The translations under genes and the position numbers were made by a program. From the NCBI RefSeq assembly GCF_900129875.1, contig NZ_FQXC01000004.1, forward strand, positions 372,001-436,000: 64,000 nucleotides of DNA, in the 5' to 3' direction. Below the pieces are notes generated by a model. That model was not told the origin of the DNA, made no database searches, and worked only from the letters and a program-made list of their open reading frames with translations. Numbering within the stretch: position 1 is the stretch's first letter; each line of letters starts with the position of its first letter. This document shows positions 30,028-37,502 of this stretch, one piece after another. Source of the stretch: Marivita hallyeonensis. GTDB lineage: Bacteria; Pseudomonadota; Alphaproteobacteria; Rhodobacterales; Rhodobacteraceae.

Positions 30028-31089
30028 CTATAAGGCCGCAAGAACCGCAGCGACAGACTGCCTTGTGTCTTCGGTGCCACCGAGATCGGCAGTGCGCGTC
30101 TCGTTCTGTGCCAAGGTGGTGGCCATAGCATTGATCACGGCCTCAGCGGCTTGGGTTTCGCCTAGGTGCTCCAGCATCATAGCGCCGGCCCAAATCGCAG
30201 CCGCCGGATTGGCGATGCCTTTGCCGGCAATATCCGGTGCGGAGCCATGCACGGGTTCGAACATGGACGGTGTCTTTCTTGCAGGGTTAAGGTTTGCCGA
30301 CGGCGCAATCCCGATTGACCCGGCAACGGCTGGACCCAGGTCCGACAGGATGTCTCCGAACAGGTTTGACGCGACAACCACGTCGAACCAGTCCGGGTGC
30401 AGAACAAAATGCGCCGCAAGGATATCAATGTGATAGGCGGCCGTTTCGACCCCGGCGTGACGCGCCGTCGCCGCTTTGAACCGCTCGTCCCAGAAGGGCA
30501 TTGTGTGGACGATCCCATTTGATTTGGTGGCCGACGTGACATGCTTTCGCCGGCGCTTGGCAAGATCAAATGCCACCTCCATGATCCGATCGGTCCCGTG
30601 GCGGGTGAACATAGCAACTTGATTGGCAGCTTCCTGCGGCGTGCCCTCGTAGAGCCGTCCACCGATCTTGGAATACTCTCCTTCGACATTTTCGCGCACA
30701 ACGACGAAGTCGATATCCTCTGGCTTCCGGTCAGCCAGCGGGCACTTGACCCCTTCAAAAAGCTTCACCGGACGCACATTGGCATAGAGGTCCAGTTCGC
30801 GCCTCAATGGTATAAGCAAACCCCAAAGGGAAACGTGGTCTGGAACCGTTGGCCAGCCGACGGCACCCAAGTAGATAGCATCATATTCCCGGACCAGGTC
30901 TATACCGTCCTCCGGCATCATCTGCCCGGTGTTCTGGAAACGATCACAGGACCAGTCGAACTCGGTCCAGTTCAACGAGAAGCCAAACTTTCGCGCGGCG
31001 GCCTCCAACACCTCCTGTCCTGCCTCAATGACCTCGTGGCCGATCCCGTCGCCGGGGATTGTCGCAATGCGGTGACGTCGATGGTTCAA
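30028..31089 (-). CDS. Tartrate / D-malate-type dehydrogenase (isopropylmalate dehydrogenase family)
   Basis: This 353-residue protein carries TIPGDGIGHEVI at the N-terminus and the signature NLFGDILSDLGPAVAGSIG near residue 245. Length and the segment LYANVRPVKLFEG fit the tartrate dehydrogenase/D-malate dehydrogenase (decarboxylating) branch rather than LeuB. It starts at TTG, supported by AAGGA eight bases upstream and an overlap with the hydrolase stop. It probably oxidises D-malate or tartrate with NAD; the exact substrate needs testing. Confidence 0.85.
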   Translation of the reverse strand: MNHRRHRIATIPGDGIGHEVIEAGQEVLEAAARKFGFSLNWTEFDWSCDRFQNTGQMMPEDGIDLVREYDAIYLGAVGWPTVPDHVSLWGLLIPLRRELDLYANVRPVKLFEGVKCPLADRKPEDIDFVVVRENVEGEYSKIGGRLYEGTPQEAANQVAMFTRHGTDRIMEVAFDLAKRRRKHVTSATKSNGIVHTMPFWDERFKAATARHAGVETAAYHIDILAAHFVLHPDWFDVVVASNLFGDILSDLGPAVAGSIGIAPSANLNPARKTPSMFEPVHGSAPDIAGKGIANPAAAIWAGAMMLEHLGETQAAEAVINAMATTLAQNETRTADLGGTEDTRQSVAAVLAAL

Positions 31090-31970
31090 GGTGCCGATCC
31101 TTCAAGGAAGAATGATTTGAGTTCTGACTGAACATGCTCCGGGCATTCTTCAGCGAGGTAGTGTCCTCCAGGCAAACTACGTCCACGCACATTTGTGGCG
31201 CGTTTGCGCCACAGGGCCACGCAGTTGAAATACCGCTCGATCACTCCATGCGCCCCCCAGAGCGCGAGCACTGGCATGTCCAGTTTGCGGTCGTCGTCCG
31301 CATTGTCATGTTCGATATCGATGCTTGCCGCAGCTCGGTAATCCTCACACATCGCATGAACGGTCGAAGGCGTGTGAATGGCAGCGAGATAGGCTTCCCA
31401 AGCATCGTCCGTGAAAGGTTCAAGACCTGCAGACCCATGTCCACATTTATATGTAAGGAAGGCTTCCGGATCTGCGCCAATCATCCGTTCCGGCAAAGGG
31501 GCCGGCAAGGTCAGCCAGAACCAATGCCAATACGCATGCGCGAATCCCTCCGTCGTATTGCGATACATTTCGCGCGTCGGTGCAATGTCCAACACCGCGA
31601 GCTTCAGCACCCGCTCGCTATGGTCAGCTGCAAGGCGATGAGCGACGCGTCCGCCGCGGTCATGACCGCACAGCAAAAACCTGTCGTGCCCCAGCTCGGA
31701 CATGACCTGTACCATGTCCGCAGCCATTTCCCGCTTGGAATACGGAGCATGATTGGCATCTGTTTTTGGTTTCGAGGAGGCGCCGTAACCACGCAGGTCC
31801 GCCGCGATCACTGTAAAGTCTTGTGCCAGGACAGGCGCCACCTTGTGCCACATTACATGGGTTTGTGGGTACCCATGCAACAACAGAAGGGGAGGACCTG
31901 AACCGCCAGTGACGCCGGCGATTTCGGCACCCACCGTGGCGATCCGGAATTTTCGGAAGTCTTCAAACAT
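31086..31970 (-). CDS. Haloacetate-dehalogenase-type alpha/beta hydrolase
   Basis: This 294-residue protein has the key residues of fluoroacetate dehalogenase in matching order: nucleophile Asp104 in GHDRGGR with carboxylate-binding Arg105 and Arg108, acid Asp128, halide-pocket His149-Trp150 (AYWHW), Tyr211 and catalytic His270 (GGHYLAEE). All are offset by about six to ten residues from the Rhodopseudomonas enzyme as I recall it. The oxyanion motif HGYPQTH is at 32-38. It probably replaces a halogen on a 2-halo acid with hydroxyl. It is coupled to the dehydrogenase gene by a four-base overlap. Confidence 0.82.
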   Translation of the reverse strand: MFEDFRKFRIATVGAEIAGVTGGSGPPLLLLHGYPQTHVMWHKVAPVLAQDFTVIAADLRGYGASSKPKTDANHAPYSKREMAADMVQVMSELGHDRFLLCGHDRGGRVAHRLAADHSERVLKLAVLDIAPTREMYRNTTEGFAHAYWHWFWLTLPAPLPERMIGADPEAFLTYKCGHGSAGLEPFTDDAWEAYLAAIHTPSTVHAMCEDYRAAASIDIEHDNADDDRKLDMPVLALWGAHGVIERYFNCVALWRKRATNVRGRSLPGGHYLAEECPEHVQSELKSFFLEGSAP

Positions 31971-32015
31971 ACTGATATCAGCAGCATGAGGCCGAACAAA
32001 GTCCAGACGTAAATA

Positions 32016-32915
32016 TTAAGTGTAATCTCTTATCAATGAGACATCCTCAGGCAAACAAGCCAAGAATTGGTCCACTGCGGTCAGTGTTTCGCCCTTCCGC
32101 CATGCCACATGGACATCCACCATTGGGCCGCCACCTTCGAGGGGGCGGTAGACGATGTCGCGCCGTTGGAACTGGCTGACCCAATGAGGAACAAGTGACA
32201 CTCCCAAACCGGCTGCGACCATGGCAATGATCATGTGTCGTTCGTTTGCCTCCTGAAGAATGCGAGGGGTTAGGCCTGCAACCTCAAAGTGATTCTGAAT
32301 AACATCAAACAAGATTGGCCTGTGCGAGCGGGCTGGAATGACGAGCGGCTCAGAGGCCACCACTTCTAGTGGCACTTCTTTTCCGCCTGCGGCGGGATGG
32401 TCGGCAGGCAGAGCAACAATCACCGGTTCGCTAAACACGAACTTGTGGTCCAAGAAGTCTTCTTTTGGTGGAACGCGGACAAAGCCAACATCTAGGGAAT
32501 GGTTGGCCAAGCCATGCAGAGCAGGTGCTGACAACATTTCGAAGACTTTAACTTCAATATTATTGTGGGAACGTCGGAATGCGCGGATCACCTGTGGCAG
32601 GATACCAGCGGTTGCGGAATCAACTCCGCCGATTTTCAGGAGCTCTCCACTGTCGCCACCAATTGCTCGTGCGGCCGCTTCCGCGGCTTCGGCTTGGGCA
32701 ATTGTGGCCTTTGCTTCTGGTAAGAAAACCTCGCCAGCACGGGTCAGGCTGACCGTTCGTGTTGTACGTTCGAACAGTTTGACGCCCAATCTGCCCTCAA
32801 GACTGCGGACTTGCGCAGAAAGGGCTGGCTGGGCCATATGAAGCTTCTCCGATGCCCGGCCAAAGTGCAGCTCTTCGGCAACCGCAAGAAAGATCCTGAG
32901 CTGTTTGAGTTCCAT
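32016..32915 (-). CDS. LysR-family transcriptional regulator
   Basis: This 299-residue protein has the N-terminal HTH in MELKQLRIFLAVAEELHFG and KLHMAQPALSAQVRSLE, and an effector-binding domain from residue 90. It begins at 32915; an in-frame extension to 33131 runs into the divergent transporter gene and is not used. It lies 45 bp upstream of the hydrolase gene on the same strand and divergent from the tctCAB transporter, so it probably controls both arms. Confidence 0.88.
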   Translation of the reverse strand: MELKQLRIFLAVAEELHFGRASEKLHMAQPALSAQVRSLEGRLGVKLFERTTRTVSLTRAGEVFLPEAKATIAQAEAAEAAARAIGGDSGELLKIGGVDSATAGILPQVIRAFRRSHNNIEVKVFEMLSAPALHGLANHSLDVGFVRVPPKEDFLDHKFVFSEPVIVALPADHPAAGGKEVPLEVVASEPLVIPARSHRPILFDVIQNHFEVAGLTPRILQEANERHMIIAMVAAGLGVSLVPHWVSQFQRRDIVYRPLEGGGPMVDVHVAWRKGETLTAVDQFLACLPEDVSLIRDYT

Positions 32916-32958
32916 GTATTGACGTTCGATCTGGGGTGAGAAGAAATATTTATAACTG

Positions 32959-32978
32959 ATTTCATCTAAATCGAAATG
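32959..32978. promoter_or_regulatory. Possible LysR binding site
   Basis: GATTT at 32959-32963 and AAATC at 32969-32973 form an inverted repeat, and an overlapping pair ATTTC (32960-32964) / GAAAT (32974-32978) forms another. The site lies in the AT-rich gap between the LysR start and tctC, as expected for a T-N11-A type site. This is a prediction from position and symmetry only. Confidence 0.4.
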
Positions 32979-33048
32979 GCAAGCATGTCTAACCTCCCAA
33001 TCCAATGTCGAGAGTTTTCGACTACTAGGGAGGACAACCATGAACCGT

Positions 33049-33055
33049 TTTTTTG
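33049..33055 (+). other. T7 tract causing a frameshift in the tctC signal peptide
   Basis: Seven Ts follow ATGAACCG (33041-33048). Removing one T fuses the ATG and its ribosome-binding site to the downstream frame. The tract could be a sequencing or assembly error, a loss-of-function mutation, or a slippage site giving on/off expression. Confidence 0.7.
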
Positions 33056-33991
33056 ACCACGGCTTTTGCGGCCGTTTCACTTTCGCTCGCAGCCAGTGCT
33101 CTGCATGCCGATGACTACCCATCCAAGGCAATTGACTACATTATTCCCTACAATCCTGGCGGGGAGTCTGACGTCACTGCTCGCTTTCAAGAGAAGTTCT
33201 GGAGCGATGTGACCGGACAGGATGTTGTCATTTCTTACAAGCCGGGAGCAGGGGGAGCCACAGCTTGGTCCCAGCTGGGTGGATTTGACGCCGACGGCTA
33301 CACGATCATGAACGTCAACTTCCCACATGCGATCCTACAACCTTCGATCAAAGATGTCGGATATCAGACCGGGGATGTCACACCGGTTTACGTGTTCCAC
33401 TACACACCGGACGCCATCGTGGTACGCGCCGACAGCCCATATCAGACGCTGCAAGACCTCATCAATTTCGCAACCGAGAACCCGGGCGCGCTGACCTTCG
33501 GCGGTTCCGGCACCAATTCGGCCAACCATCTCGCGGCTGTGCGCTTTGGTCAGATGGCTGACGTGAAGGTAACCTATGTGCCGTTCGGCGGGTCAGCGCC
33601 TGCCATGGCGGCCGTTCTTGGCGGCCAGATCGGTGCGGGCATGACATATACAACGCAAGGGGTCAAAGCCGGAGATCAAGTGCGTGTGCTGGCCATTGCC
33701 ACAGAAGAGCGGCTCGACATCTTTCCAGATGTACCAACCTTCAAGGAACTGGGCTTTGATTACGTTGCCGGTGCCTATCGTGGTGTGACGGTTCCCGCGG
33801 GAACGCCAGATGATGTCCGCAATGCGCTGTCTGTTGTGATTGCTCAAATCAACGACATTCCCGAATTCCAGGCCCAGATGCAGGAAAATGGCTATGTCCT
33901 GGTCGATGTTCCAAACTCCGAGATGGGTGCCTGGATTGCTGAACGCCAGGCCGACTACGCGTCTGGCATTGAGACCCTGAAAGGCAACTAA
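33053..33991 (+). CDS. Tripartite tricarboxylate transporter substrate-binding protein (TctC/Bug), frameshifted start
   Basis: The 312-residue frame matches TctC/Bug binding proteins: PSKAIDYIIPYNPGGESDVTAR, then PGAGGATAW and FGGSGTNSANHLAAV. It opens at a TTG inside the signal peptide. A strong AGGGAGG ribosome-binding site and an ATG at 33041 lie just upstream but are out of frame because of seven Ts at 33049-33055. With six Ts the protein would begin MNRFLTTAFAAVSLSLAAS, a normal signal peptide. Either the T run carries an indel or sequence error, or expression depends on slippage. The mature protein would bind a carboxylate in the periplasm. Confidence 0.85.
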   Translation: MTTAFAAVSLSLAASALHADDYPSKAIDYIIPYNPGGESDVTARFQEKFWSDVTGQDVVISYKPGAGGATAWSQLGGFDADGYTIMNVNFPHAILQPSIKDVGYQTGDVTPVYVFHYTPDAIVVRADSPYQTLQDLINFATENPGALTFGGSGTNSANHLAAVRFGQMADVKVTYVPFGGSAPAMAAVLGGQIGAGMTYTTQGVKAGDQVRVLAIATEERLDIFPDVPTFKELGFDYVAGAYRGVTVPAGTPDDVRNALSVVIAQINDIPEFQAQMQENGYVLVDVPNSEMGAWIAERQADYASGIETLKGN

Positions 33992-34015
33992 TTTCACATC
34001 CCGGAGCAGCGCGCC

Positions 34016-35512
34016 ATGTTGGACGCCTTACTTTCAGCCTTGTCGCTGGAAAACCTCCTCCTTGCGTTTCTTGGCGTGATCGGAGGAACCATCATCGGCG
34101 CGTTGCCCGGACTTTCGGCGACCATGGCGGTCGCCGTTCTGGTGCCATTTACATTCACGATGGACCCAAGCTCTGGCTTGATCGTGTTGGGTGCGATCTA
34201 CACCGGTGCAATATATGGCGGTGCTTACTCGGCCATTTTGGTAAACACACCAGGTACCCCCGCTGCTATCGCGACCTCAATGGACGGGTTCCCCATGGCC
34301 AAACGCGGAGACGGTGACCTCGCCGTAACACTCTCCTGTCTTGGTTCGGTTGCAGGTGGTATTGTAGGGGCACTCGCCCTTTTGTTCCTCGCGCCACCCC
34401 TGTCGCAAATCGCACTGTCTTTCGGGCCAGTGGAGTATTTCTGGCTGGCGATCTTTGGGTTGTCGCTTATTGCGACACTGTCTCGTGGAGCAACCTTGCT
34501 CGGATTGATCGGTGGGGGGATAGGTCTGCTTCTTTCCTGTGTTGGGTCGGCGGTGGTTGGCGGGGATGTCCGATATACGTTCGGCCTGACCTCCCTTCTG
34601 GGCGGCATTCCGGTTATTCCCGCCTTGATCGGCCTCTACTGCGTGCCGGTGTTGATCGATATGGTGATCCGCCCCGAAGCGCATTTGGAACGCCGCGCCG
34701 AACAGATGCGCGGGTTCCGCCTGACCGAGGCGCTCAGTCTGATGTGGCGCTCGAAGTTCAATGTGATCCGCTCGGCGATGATCGGAACCGGCGTCGGCAT
34801 CATCCCGGCGGCAGGCGGCTCAGTAGCCGGACTTGTGGCTTACTCCGAGGCCCGCAGGACTGCCAAAACACCAGAACAGTTCGGTAAAGGTGCACATGAC
34901 GGGGTGATTGCGTCCGAGGCATCAAACTCCGCCACCGTGGGCGGCGGGTTTATTCCAACGCTTGTGCTAGGCATTCCCGGCACACCGCCTGACGCCATCA
35001 TCCTCGGCGCGCTTCTGGTGCAGGGGATCCGCACCGGCCCGCAACTCTTTACCCAGCAAGCTGACATCGTATTTACGTTCACCTTCGGGCTCCTGATAGC
35101 CACACTCCTGATGCTGCCAACCGGACTGATCATCGGGCGCTATGCGTATCGGTTGATCGTCTCGGTGCCCAAAACCGCGCTGGCGCCTGCCATCGCTTTT
35201 CTGACGATTGTGGGTTCCTTTGCCATTGAGGCAAACACCTTCCATGTGTTGATCATGGTGTCGCTTGGTATCATCGGCTGGCTTCTTGCGCGTATCGGCA
35301 TTGAGGCGTCGCCCATCGTTTTGGGATTGATCCTCGGGCCTATTGCGGAAGCTGGTTTTGTGCAAGGCTGGCTGATCGGCGGGGCACAAGGGGATCGCTT
35401 TGGCATGTTTTTCGGCCAACCGATTTCCCTTGCGATCATGGCGCTCACAGTGTTGACGCTTGCCTCTTCCGGCGTCTTCAAACGAAAGACTCGTCTGGAG
35501 TGTTCAACATGA
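34016..35512 (+). CDS. Tripartite tricarboxylate transporter large permease (TctA)
   Basis: This 498-residue membrane protein has roughly 11-12 hydrophobic segments and the family motifs GALPGLSATMAVAVLVP near residue 28, YGGAYSAILVNTPGTPAAIATS near 63-84 and GIPGTPPDAIILGAL near 320. It forms the main sodium-driven channel for a carboxylate. It lies 24 bp after tctC and overlaps tctB by four bases. Confidence 0.93.
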   Translation: MLDALLSALSLENLLLAFLGVIGGTIIGALPGLSATMAVAVLVPFTFTMDPSSGLIVLGAIYTGAIYGGAYSAILVNTPGTPAAIATSMDGFPMAKRGDGDLAVTLSCLGSVAGGIVGALALLFLAPPLSQIALSFGPVEYFWLAIFGLSLIATLSRGATLLGLIGGGIGLLLSCVGSAVVGGDVRYTFGLTSLLGGIPVIPALIGLYCVPVLIDMVIRPEAHLERRAEQMRGFRLTEALSLMWRSKFNVIRSAMIGTGVGIIPAAGGSVAGLVAYSEARRTAKTPEQFGKGAHDGVIASEASNSATVGGGFIPTLVLGIPGTPPDAIILGALLVQGIRTGPQLFTQQADIVFTFTFGLLIATLLMLPTGLIIGRYAYRLIVSVPKTALAPAIAFLTIVGSFAIEANTFHVLIMVSLGIIGWLLARIGIEASPIVLGLILGPIAEAGFVQGWLIGGAQGDRFGMFFGQPISLAIMALTVLTLASSGVFKRKTRLECST

Positions 35513-35952
35513 CTCGGATTGTGAACCAGTGGCGTCAGGCCCTCGTTGCCGTCCTCAGCATCGGTCTGGGGGCCTTTGCAATCTCACAGACAAACAGCAT
35601 GTCCGAACTGGGACGCGTCTTTCCGACCACTGCCAGCCTGATTGCGATTTCTGCTGGTTTGGGGGTGTTGGTGCAGATCATCCTGCGGCCGAGCGCTGAT
35701 ACAGTGGCAAACGAGAAGATTGACCACTTTAGAGCCGGGCTCTTCGCCGCGACCATGTTGGTTTGGGCGCTGTCACCTGATCGCTTCGGTTTTGTGCCCA
35801 CGTCTAGCATGGCTGTGTTTGCGGTCGCGGTGATCACACGCCGCGAACCGATGTCAAAGACATCGATCCTTGTTCATGCCGCGGCCGGCGTCGTTCTGGT
35901 GCTGGGGTTCTCGCTGCTTCTGAGCGAAGTGCTGAACGTGCGGCTTCCTTGA
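35509..35952 (+). CDS. Tripartite tricarboxylate transporter small permease (TctB)
   Basis: This 147-residue protein has four hydrophobic segments, as in the TctB family. The ATG at 35509 overlaps the tctA stop (ATGA) and follows a GGAG at 35497-35500; a GTG at 35500 is also open. It completes a tctC-tctA-tctB operon. The substrate is not identifiable from sequence, but a dicarboxylate would fit the divergent dehydrogenase. Confidence 0.85.
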   Translation: MTRIVNQWRQALVAVLSIGLGAFAISQTNSMSELGRVFPTTASLIAISAGLGVLVQIILRPSADTVANEKIDHFRAGLFAATMLVWALSPDRFGFVPTSSMAVFAVAVITRREPMSKTSILVHAAAGVVLVLGFSLLLSEVLNVRLP

Positions 35953-36388: not shown

Positions 36389-37502
36389 TGCGCCATCAAC
36401 TCGTTGGTCTTGCTATCTCGTTTTTGTTCCTTTGCTTCAGGCGTAGTGTGGGCGATAGTATTCGTTCCTCGTCAAAACGGCCCATATGATCCGTGCGGTT
36501 TTGTTGGCCATCGCCACGGTCGCGAGCCTGGTTGGCTTGCGTTCAAGCAGTCCGATGGCCCATGGGTCGACACGATCTGGATTCACCTTCATCTGTCGCA
36601 GCCGAGCTGTCATTCCTGTGACCAATAGGCGTCGAAGATATCGATCACCCATCTTCGAGATCCTGCCCAGTCTTTCTTTGCCACCGCTGGATCGGTTCAG
36701 CGGCGTCAGACCAAGCCAAGCTGCGAACTCGCGACCGTTCTTGAACTGGCGCGCATCGCCGATCGTTGCTGCTATGGCGGAAGCTGTCACCGGTCCGACG
36801 CCCGGTATAGTTCGAAGCAGGGCCACATGCGGATCTTGCTTTGCCTGAAGACGCATACGCATTTCGTACCAACGGATCCGCAAGTGCAAAGCCACGAGCT
36901 GATTGCTCAAATTTGTCAGCACATCAACTGCAACTTCGGGAATATCTGGGGGGTCGTTGTCCAACACATCTTTTGCGAATTTCACCGCGCTGCCAATTCC
37001 TTGGGCAATCACAATTCCAAATTCGGCGAGCAGACCGCGCAACAAATTGCTGATCTGAGTGCGTTGGCGAACGATGAGATCACGCGCGCGATGAAGGAAC
37101 AGAACGCTTTGTTGCTCTTCCGTTTTGATCGCAACAAACCGCATGGTCGGGCGTGTCACGGCTTCGCAGATCGCTTCGGCATCGGCGGCATCAGATTTGC
37201 CGCGCTTGACGTAAGGCTTCACGTAATTGGCCGGGATCAAACGGACGTCATGCCCGAGTGCGCTCAATTGGCGCGCCCATTAGTGGCTCGAACTGCAAGC
37301 TTCCATTCCTACCAAACAAGCTGGAAGGTTTTCAAAGAAAGCCAAAAGCTGCGCCCGCCTTATCGCGCGATTGAAAACAACATCGCCACTTTCAGCGATG
37401 CCATGGACCTGAAAGATGTTCTTGGCGAGATCTATGCCAATTGTTGTAACCTGCATTGGGTGGCTCCTCTAATAGCAGTTATGACAACTGCATTATGGCG
37501 CA
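36389..37502. mobile_element. IS110-family insertion sequence
   Basis: A transposase gene of the IS110 family is flanked by short inverted repeats, TGCGCCAT at 36389-36396 and ATGGCGCA at 37495-37502, lying 40 and 38 bases outside the gene. Subterminal repeats like this are typical of the IS1111 subgroup, in which true ends lie a few bases further out and no target duplication is made. A palindrome, GCAGTTATGACAACTGC (37475-37491), lies between the transposase start and the right repeat. Exact ends are not certain. Confidence 0.7.
36437..37456 (-). pseudogene. IS110-family transposase, interrupted by an in-frame TAA
   Basis: Read from the ATG at 37456, the frame is 340 codons to the stop at 36437, the normal size for IS110 transposases. 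It has the DEDD N-terminal domain (GIDLAKN, GMEAC, KSDAADAEAI) and the C-terminal Transposase_20 domain (TIPGVGPVTASAIAATIG, SSGGKERLG). Codon 59 is TAA (37280-37282) where relatives have Tyr in a HYWAR motif. The 276-residue downstream frame lacks the first catalytic Asp, so the element is probably inactive. Suppression or a sequence error are alternatives. Confidence 0.85.

Follow-up and report, generated by a model that had tools for sequence, protein, structure and literature searches.

Which compound is broken down by a fluoroacetate-dehalogenase-like hydrolase that shares an operon with a tartrate/D-malate-type dehydrogenase? This is the question raised by six genes of Marivita hallyeonensis (genome of 4.19 Mb in 20 contigs), which we examined in a stretch of 64,000 nucleotides of contig NZ_FQXC01000004.1 (the window; contig positions 372001-436000). 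The genes lie at window positions 30028-35952. On the reverse strand are those for the beta-decarboxylating dehydrogenase (TDH), the alpha/beta hydrolase (HYD) and a LysR-family regulator, and divergent from these, on the forward strand, are tctC, tctA and tctB, the genes of a tripartite tricarboxylate transporter (TTT). An earlier note on this DNA had described one LysR gene standing between a tctCAB importer and a hydrolase-dehydrogenase operon, and all six genes are indeed in place. We consider it reasonably probable, if well short of certain, that this cassette imports and degrades a C4-dicarboxylic acid bearing a leaving group at C2 (a halogen or the oxygen of an epoxide) and feeds the product into central metabolism. 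The statement to which we commit ourselves is that HYD would form a hydroxysuccinate and supply it to TDH, a step common to the halide and epoxide versions of the route set out below.

The pairing of HYD with TDH recurs. Ten of the 80 best HYD loci (L001, L002, L003, L005, L008, L011, L012, L014, L015 and L016, in our numbering) have TDH downstream of HYD, directly so in all but L015, where about 0.9 kb separates the two; the records concerned are named as Alphaproteobacteria, Granulosicoccaceae and Gemmatimonadota, and several of them are bins from metagenomes, where misbinning can occur. The three loci with the closest HYD by identity belong to records named Rhodobacteraceae, Roseicyclus and Pseudaestuariivita. 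The pair is also found as LysR-HYD-TDH in L097 and, on a named Jannaschia plasmid, in the order TctA, mandelate-racemase-family enzyme, HYD, TDH; the window genome itself contains the pair twice, the second copy being 75% and 81% identical to the first. In the window, TDH begins with a TTG codon and overlaps the stop of HYD by 4 bases. Similarly tight junctions were seen elsewhere: at 13 of the 16 paired loci (all but L096, L097 and L098, and taking the nearest start codons, a choice of our own), 12 junctions, that of the window included, overlap or abut, with seven overlaps of 4 bases, two of 8 and 14 bases, three abutting genes and the single gap of L015. In a sample of 394 genomes of the family, the window genome included (expectation value, E, <= 1e-110 for HYD and for TDH), HYD was found in 18 genomes, TDH in 50 and both in 7, compared with about 2 expected by chance (18 x 50 / 394); in 5 the two genes are adjacent. 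The corresponding counts for 289 genomes of the class (E <= 1e-100 for HYD, <= 1e-120 for TDH) are 17, 65 and 11, with adjacency in the window genome only. The pairing is real but confined to a limited set of lineages. Because it recurs with tight junctions, it is very likely that HYD and TDH act in one route, and the linked route put forward in the earlier note is backed to this extent, though many genomes have HYD without the pairing.

The hydrolase (31086..31970, reverse strand) belongs to Abhydrolase_1 and carries the complete fluoroacetate-dehalogenase residue set that had been claimed for it. D104, R105, R108, D128, H149, W150, Y211 and H270 correspond to D110, R111, R114, D134, H155, W156, Y219 and H280 of RPA1163, numbered here as the chain index minus two, which makes the nucleophile D110. 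Among these are the Asp-His-Asp triad (D104/H270/D128) and the His/Trp/Tyr halide site (H149, W150 and Y211); the triad, the nucleophilic Asp and W150 are each kept in 16/16 TDH-paired HYDs. The segment DRGGRVAHR (D104-R105-G-G-R108-V-A-H-R112) matches DRxxRxxxR, and D104, R105, R108 and R112 are invariant across 32 aligned sequences. This motif is given as the mark that sets fluoroacetate dehalogenases apart from epoxide hydrolases, which lack it according to the available part of PMC7429986. Cif-like epoxide hydrolases, for their part, are described with H-G-X-P (X being aromatic) and a His/Tyr pair in the cap (PMC8244358, in the part available). HYD, judged by description and not by alignment, has both features (HGYP and H149/Y211), but these do not discriminate, because RPA1163 has both too, and HYD departs from the Cif-like description in that DRxxRxxxR is there. 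By sequence, the closest solved relatives of HYD are 3qyj (Alr0039), 9c9f (the fluoroacetate dehalogenase of Delftia D4B), 4nvr (a putative acyltransferase) and 3r3u (RPA1163). An AlphaFold2 model (mean predicted local distance difference test score of 94.5) gave, as its ten best Foldseek matches, 3qyj, 9c9f, 8sdc and RPA1163 chains, at template modelling (TM) scores of 0.95-0.97, with 3qyj at the top (0.97). The window genome has yet another fluoroacetate-dehalogenase-like gene, its third and a more distant one (C10:353495-354310; L094, L083), which is 46% identical and groups in the tree with Rhizobiaceae plasmid copies and RPA1163; in another genome of the family we saw a 68% identical copy of HYD with one internal TGA (G173:C1:1696107-1696982).

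As to the size of the substrate, the pocket offers a hint. Trp185 sits in the substrate pocket of RPA1163 (PMC11465415, available part); HYD has K175 at the position of Lys181 and G179 at that of Trp185, and so does not keep the pocket tryptophan, which is not universal in any case, 9c9f having Arg. We counted residues in 16 TDH-paired HYDs and 76 others, the latter including L113 and L117, in which TDH lies alongside in divergent arrangement; L095 (a repeat of L003), L106 (a repeat of L004), L084-L090, L093 and L094 were left out. The Lys181 position is Lys in 16/16 paired sequences versus 22/76 others, two of these 22 being L113 and L117. At the Trp185 position the paired sequences have Gly (15) or Ala (1), and the others mostly Arg (49), with Gly in 15, Trp in 6 and different residues in the small remainder. 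The position of RPA1163 Tyr139 is Arg in 16/16 versus 20/76. L113 and L117, which are from Rhizobiaceae plasmids, have Lys at both pocket positions and are without Arg at the Tyr139 position. Titles of PDB entries record that variants of RPA1163 at Lys181 and Trp185, including Lys181Ser/Trp185Gly, were solved with 2-fluoro-3-arylpropanoates. These data are suggestive of two positions that face the substituent on the beta carbon of the substrate, in which case a wider pocket that keeps the lysine would suit a second carboxylate. Since Lys at the one position and Gly or Ala at the other are common to all 16 paired HYDs, a C4-dicarboxylate is our best guess.

The second enzyme (TDH, 30028..31089, reverse strand) scores 543.3 bits against TIGR02089, for which the cut-off is 470.4, and its best solved relative is the tartrate dehydrogenase 3flk. 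Family and residues therefore agree with the earlier proposal that a dehalogenase-type hydrolase acts ahead of a tartrate/D-malate-type dehydrogenase. By alignment, the window TDH is 61% identical to the Pseudomonas putida enzyme (3flk) and 57% identical to Escherichia coli DmlA. In the tree (drawn, for display only, without loci L039-L079 except L074), its clade, in which we know of no characterized member, stands apart from the sister pair formed by DmlA and P. putida TDH, which share 79% identity. The TDHs of L014 and L015, likewise paired with HYD, are placed outside this clade with support of 0.991, on the side of DmlA and P. putida TDH; HYD has thus been partnered with at least two TDH lineages. 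Placement in the tree was also tried as a means of telling a D-malate enzyme from a tartrate enzyme, but it does not decide the matter, since the two reference enzymes, DmlA and P. putida TDH, fall into one group. Nor does the family fix the product, given the substrate use of its members: both TDH relatives described in PMC11353897 use D-malate, and one of them, the Acinetobacter baumannii enzyme (MDH), uses neither L- nor meso-tartrate in the part of that paper available.

Putting these elements together, we propose that TctCAB imports a C4-dicarboxylic acid and that LysR regulates the two divergent arms of the cluster. Within HYD, R105 and R108 would hold the C1 carboxylate, while K175 and the space left by G179 would take the far one; D104 would displace, with inversion, the leaving group held by H149, W150 and Y211, and H270 and D128 would then hydrolyse the ester intermediate. 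The product would be a 2-hydroxysuccinate, namely, D-malate from 2-halosuccinate or tartrate from epoxysuccinate, and TDH would oxidize and decarboxylate it to pyruvate or D-glycerate. The argument of the earlier note that inversion of an L-2-halosuccinate gives D-malate is, as a matter of chemistry, sound in itself. A check for a glycerate kinase returned a MOFRL protein in the window genome, which is compatible with D-glycerate as a product but generic.

Several observations weigh against this proposal. At the thresholds used, the pairing is absent from 13 of the 18 genomes with HYD in the family sample and from 16 of the 17 in the class sample. The residues at 175 and 179 go with phylogeny and are found in unpaired sisters as well (Lys in 22/76, Gly in 15/76); in these related sequences the counts are therefore not independent, and they are suggestive only. 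In 21bk, RPA1163 unchanged at both positions was also solved with 2-fluoro-3-phenylpropanoate, and the pocket change is therefore not required for the substituent. Nine of the 16 paired loci (L097 among them) have no such importer beside the pair, some of them being on short contigs, so that the importer may not be tied to the substrate of HYD and TDH. Finally, the reading frame of tctC is disturbed at its expected start: the ATG at 33040, together with the ribosome-binding site before it, is offset by one base from the frame of the rest of the gene.

If the hydroxysuccinate route is granted, 2-halosuccinate to D-malate and epoxysuccinate to tartrate fit it about equally well, and the sequence does not separate them. 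Tentatively, HYD may turn (S)-2-halosuccinate into D-malate, which TDH would convert to pyruvate and CO2. All halide-site residues, W150 in every paired HYD among them, are kept; the fluoroacetate-dehalogenase mark of PMC7429986 is present; and D-malate is a substrate shared by both TDH relatives of PMC11353897. Four loci with TDHs of the same clade and no HYD (L101, L103, L105 and L112; L112 annotated and scanned, the other three assessed by eye) have an aldehyde dehydrogenase gene adjoining TDH or close by, an arrangement that recalls the carnitine-to-D-malate route (PMC11353897, available part). The aldehyde dehydrogenase of L112 is above the cut-off of TIGR01780, and its best matches among solved structures are succinate-semialdehyde dehydrogenases; because the 8 matches listed include no malic semialdehyde dehydrogenase, the carnitine reading of these four loci is by analogy only. 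Counting against a halide substrate, the open-licence literature yielded no paper on a chloro-, bromo- or fluorosuccinate dehalogenase (spellings such as '2-chlorosuccinate' or '-succinic acid' were possibly missed), and halosuccinates are not, to our knowledge, common natural compounds. A link to fluoride was tried as well: no Rfam family, and hence no fluoride riboswitch, reaches its gathering score in the window, nor is there a CrcB gene, one being found on another contig (C9), with CLC-type fluoride exporters not searched for. These negatives speak against the halide version but are not decisive, because chlorinated or brominated substrates would need neither. Slightly more tentative is the idea that HYD is an epoxysuccinate hydrolase, giving meso-tartrate from the trans or L- or D-tartrate from the cis compound, with D-glycerate or oxaloglycolate formed by TDH. 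In favour of it, fungal and cyanobacterial enzymes make (2S,3S)-trans-epoxysuccinate from fumarate (PMC12568646, available part), and polyhydroxy-acid-type genes neighbour some related loci: an L-threonate dehydrogenase above cut-off in L012 and, all below cut-off, glyoxylate-reductase-like and tartronate-semialdehyde-reductase-like genes in L105 and a galactarate-dehydratase-like enzyme in L110. HGYP and the cap pair recall the Cif-like enzymes of PMC8244358 but are also those of RPA1163, and DRxxRxxxR, reported as missing from epoxide hydrolases in the available part of PMC7429986, argues the other way, as does the failure of A. baumannii MDH, a TDH relative, to use meso- or L-tartrate in that of PMC11353897. 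Under names for trans-epoxysuccinate hydrolase, the open-licence literature returned nothing, its matches being for trans-epoxysuccinic acid only. That activity (EC 3.3.2.4 in the Enzyme Commission system) appears in the older literature, in a pseudomonad bearing tartrate dehydrogenase, and we know of no gene for it. The earlier note had spoken of a halogenated acid; its linked route and its kinds of enzyme are supported, whereas the halogenated substrate is no more than one possibility, an epoxide (epoxysuccinate) suiting these residues and this dehydrogenase as well.

Outside the hydroxysuccinate route, it is improbable that HYD is a plain haloacetate or fluoroacetate detoxification enzyme with TDH as a bystander. 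Its ca. 46% identity and near-identical predicted fold to RPA1163 would suit such a role, as would the fact that most HYD relatives are not beside TDH; yet the tight pairing recurs, Gly replaces the pocket tryptophan, and the window has neither CrcB nor a fluoride riboswitch. Glycolate, which detoxification would yield, is moreover not a TDH substrate known to us. We regard it as just as improbable that the bond cleaved by HYD is not a carbon-halogen or epoxide bond but that of a hydroxydicarboxylic acid ester or lactone. A fluoroacetate-defluorinating hydrolase with esterase activity does exist, but it has a Ser nucleophile, replacement of which by Asp raised dehalogenase and diminished esterase activity (PMC13230308, available part), and the nucleophile is Asp in all 16 paired HYDs. 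A role in defence against phage was likewise considered for HYD and TDH, and PADLOC matched neither.

The importer genes are all of the expected kind. TctC (substrate-binding protein, 33053..33991; PF03401, 144.5 bits), TctA (large permease, 34016..35512; PF01970, 446.7 bits) and TctB (small permease, 35500..35952; PF07331, 36.9 bits, cut-off 29.1) each score above the Pfam cut-off. Besides the window, the full TctCAB-LysR-HYD-TDH cassette is present in L001, L002, L003, L005 and L096, with TctB identity as low as 33-35% in two of these five. Elsewhere, L015 has two weak TctC-like genes (28-30%) 8-9 kb from the pair, and in L012 an ATP-binding cassette (ABC) importer adjoins it (by eye). Comparison of TctC with solved structures gave 11 relatives, the best three of which (25hk, 2dvz and 4x9t) are within 2 bits of one another, and was uninformative as to the ligand. 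The start of tctC is disturbed: a run of seven T lies beside the ATG at 33040, and the first in-frame start codon is the TTG at 33053. The other five aligned cassettes have an ATG in the corresponding position or close to it, in frame in L096, the one checked. What is seen in the window may reflect an error in sequencing or a variable tract, or the frame break may be genuine. Just past tctB is an IS110-family transposase gene (36437-37267, reverse strand), whose match begins at model position 69/343; its N-terminal part seems to be missing.

The mechanical open reading frame for LysR (32016-33131) is too long, the helix-turn-helix domain beginning only at its residue 75, and we therefore took the gene as 32016..32915 (reverse strand; 299 amino acids, starting MELKQLRIF). 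This leaves 137 bases between the LysR start and the first in-frame start of tctC. A block within that interval (32946..32973), partly conserved in an alignment of the six cassettes, is a candidate operator or promoter. In an ungapped 27-base scan it was recovered with 2 mismatches in the window, 1 each in L001 and L005 and 6 each in L002 and L003, and was not found within 8 mismatches in L096, L093, L097, L110, L012, L008, L016 or L098. The second HYD-TDH pair of the window genome (L093 9997-11939; C11:630596-632529, on the contig of the window) is without TctCAB and has a hydrogenase-like cluster downstream (by eye); upstream of it lie weak, separate LysR-like pieces (39-50%) that resemble a decayed regulator.

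Two other gene clusters deserve mention. On the Rhizobiaceae plasmids of L113 and L117, the HYD relative is divergent from a tartrate dehydrogenase gene and is accompanied by a second Iso_dh-type gene, PdxA, MmgE/PrpD and TTT importer genes; these clusters may hold an undescribed di- or tricarboxylate route. In Leisingera (L112 3812-9059, and L103), genes for an aminotransferase, a haloacid dehalogenase type II (95% identical between the two loci), an Lrp regulator, a semialdehyde dehydrogenase and TDH stand in a row. We considered whether this dehalogenase was a convergent partner of TDH and set the idea aside: its gene directly follows that of the aminotransferase and is separated from TDH by two genes, and it was found in 2 of the 8 loci with TDH and no HYD that were read (L099-L105 and L112).

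To return to the hydroxysuccinate-forming route that we favour, each of its components is of a known kind, while the combination and the clade-specific pocket seem new. That the route had not been described, as the earlier note supposed, accords with the open-licence literature, in which we found no paper joining haloacetate dehalogenase with tartrate dehydrogenase; among the matches listed, one paper has fluoroacetate dehalogenase together with tartrate, the latter as a crystallization salt. We know of no natural substrate for most fluoroacetate-dehalogenase-like enzymes. By linking one HYD clade with a defined second enzyme, and in some genomes also with an importer, the recurring operon narrows the likely product to a 2-hydroxysuccinate; two recombinant enzymes and a few simple compounds would then suffice to test which substrate is used. 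The operon may also supply a gene for an old orphan activity. Speculatively, and we think the odds rather against it, the TDH-paired clade would be a dedicated dicarboxylate enzyme, possibly encoded by the missing gene for trans-epoxysuccinate hydrolase, and fluoroacetate-dehalogenase-like enzymes may often serve the breakdown of natural epoxy- or halodicarboxylates rather than of fluoroacetate.

HYD shares with RPA1163 (3r3u; ca. 46% identity) and the Delftia D4B enzyme (9c9f; 51-52%) the predicted fold, the Asp-His-Asp triad, both carboxylate arginines and the His/Trp/Tyr site. Unlike RPA1163, it has Gly in place of Trp185 and Arg in place of Tyr139, and its gene is in an operon with TDH, beside a TTT importer. 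Its closest solved structure, the Nostoc alpha/beta hydrolase Alr0039 (3qyj; 53% identity), differs in keeping the pocket Trp and in having Cys at the Lys181 position. The window TDH is an enzyme of the same kind as P. putida TDH and E. coli DmlA but of a separate lineage. The cis-epoxysuccinate hydrolase that forms L-tartrate, which we compared with HYD by description and not by sequence, resembles our proposal in taking an epoxydicarboxylate to tartrate in two steps through an ester intermediate, and is ca. 30% identical to L-2-haloacid dehalogenase (PMC6429283, available part). Carnitine degradation in A. baumannii, like the cassette, ends with a decarboxylating D-malate dehydrogenase and has a LysR gene in its cluster; unlike the proposed route, it reaches D-malate from malic semialdehyde and not by way of an alpha/beta hydrolase, as far as the available part of PMC11353897 describes it.

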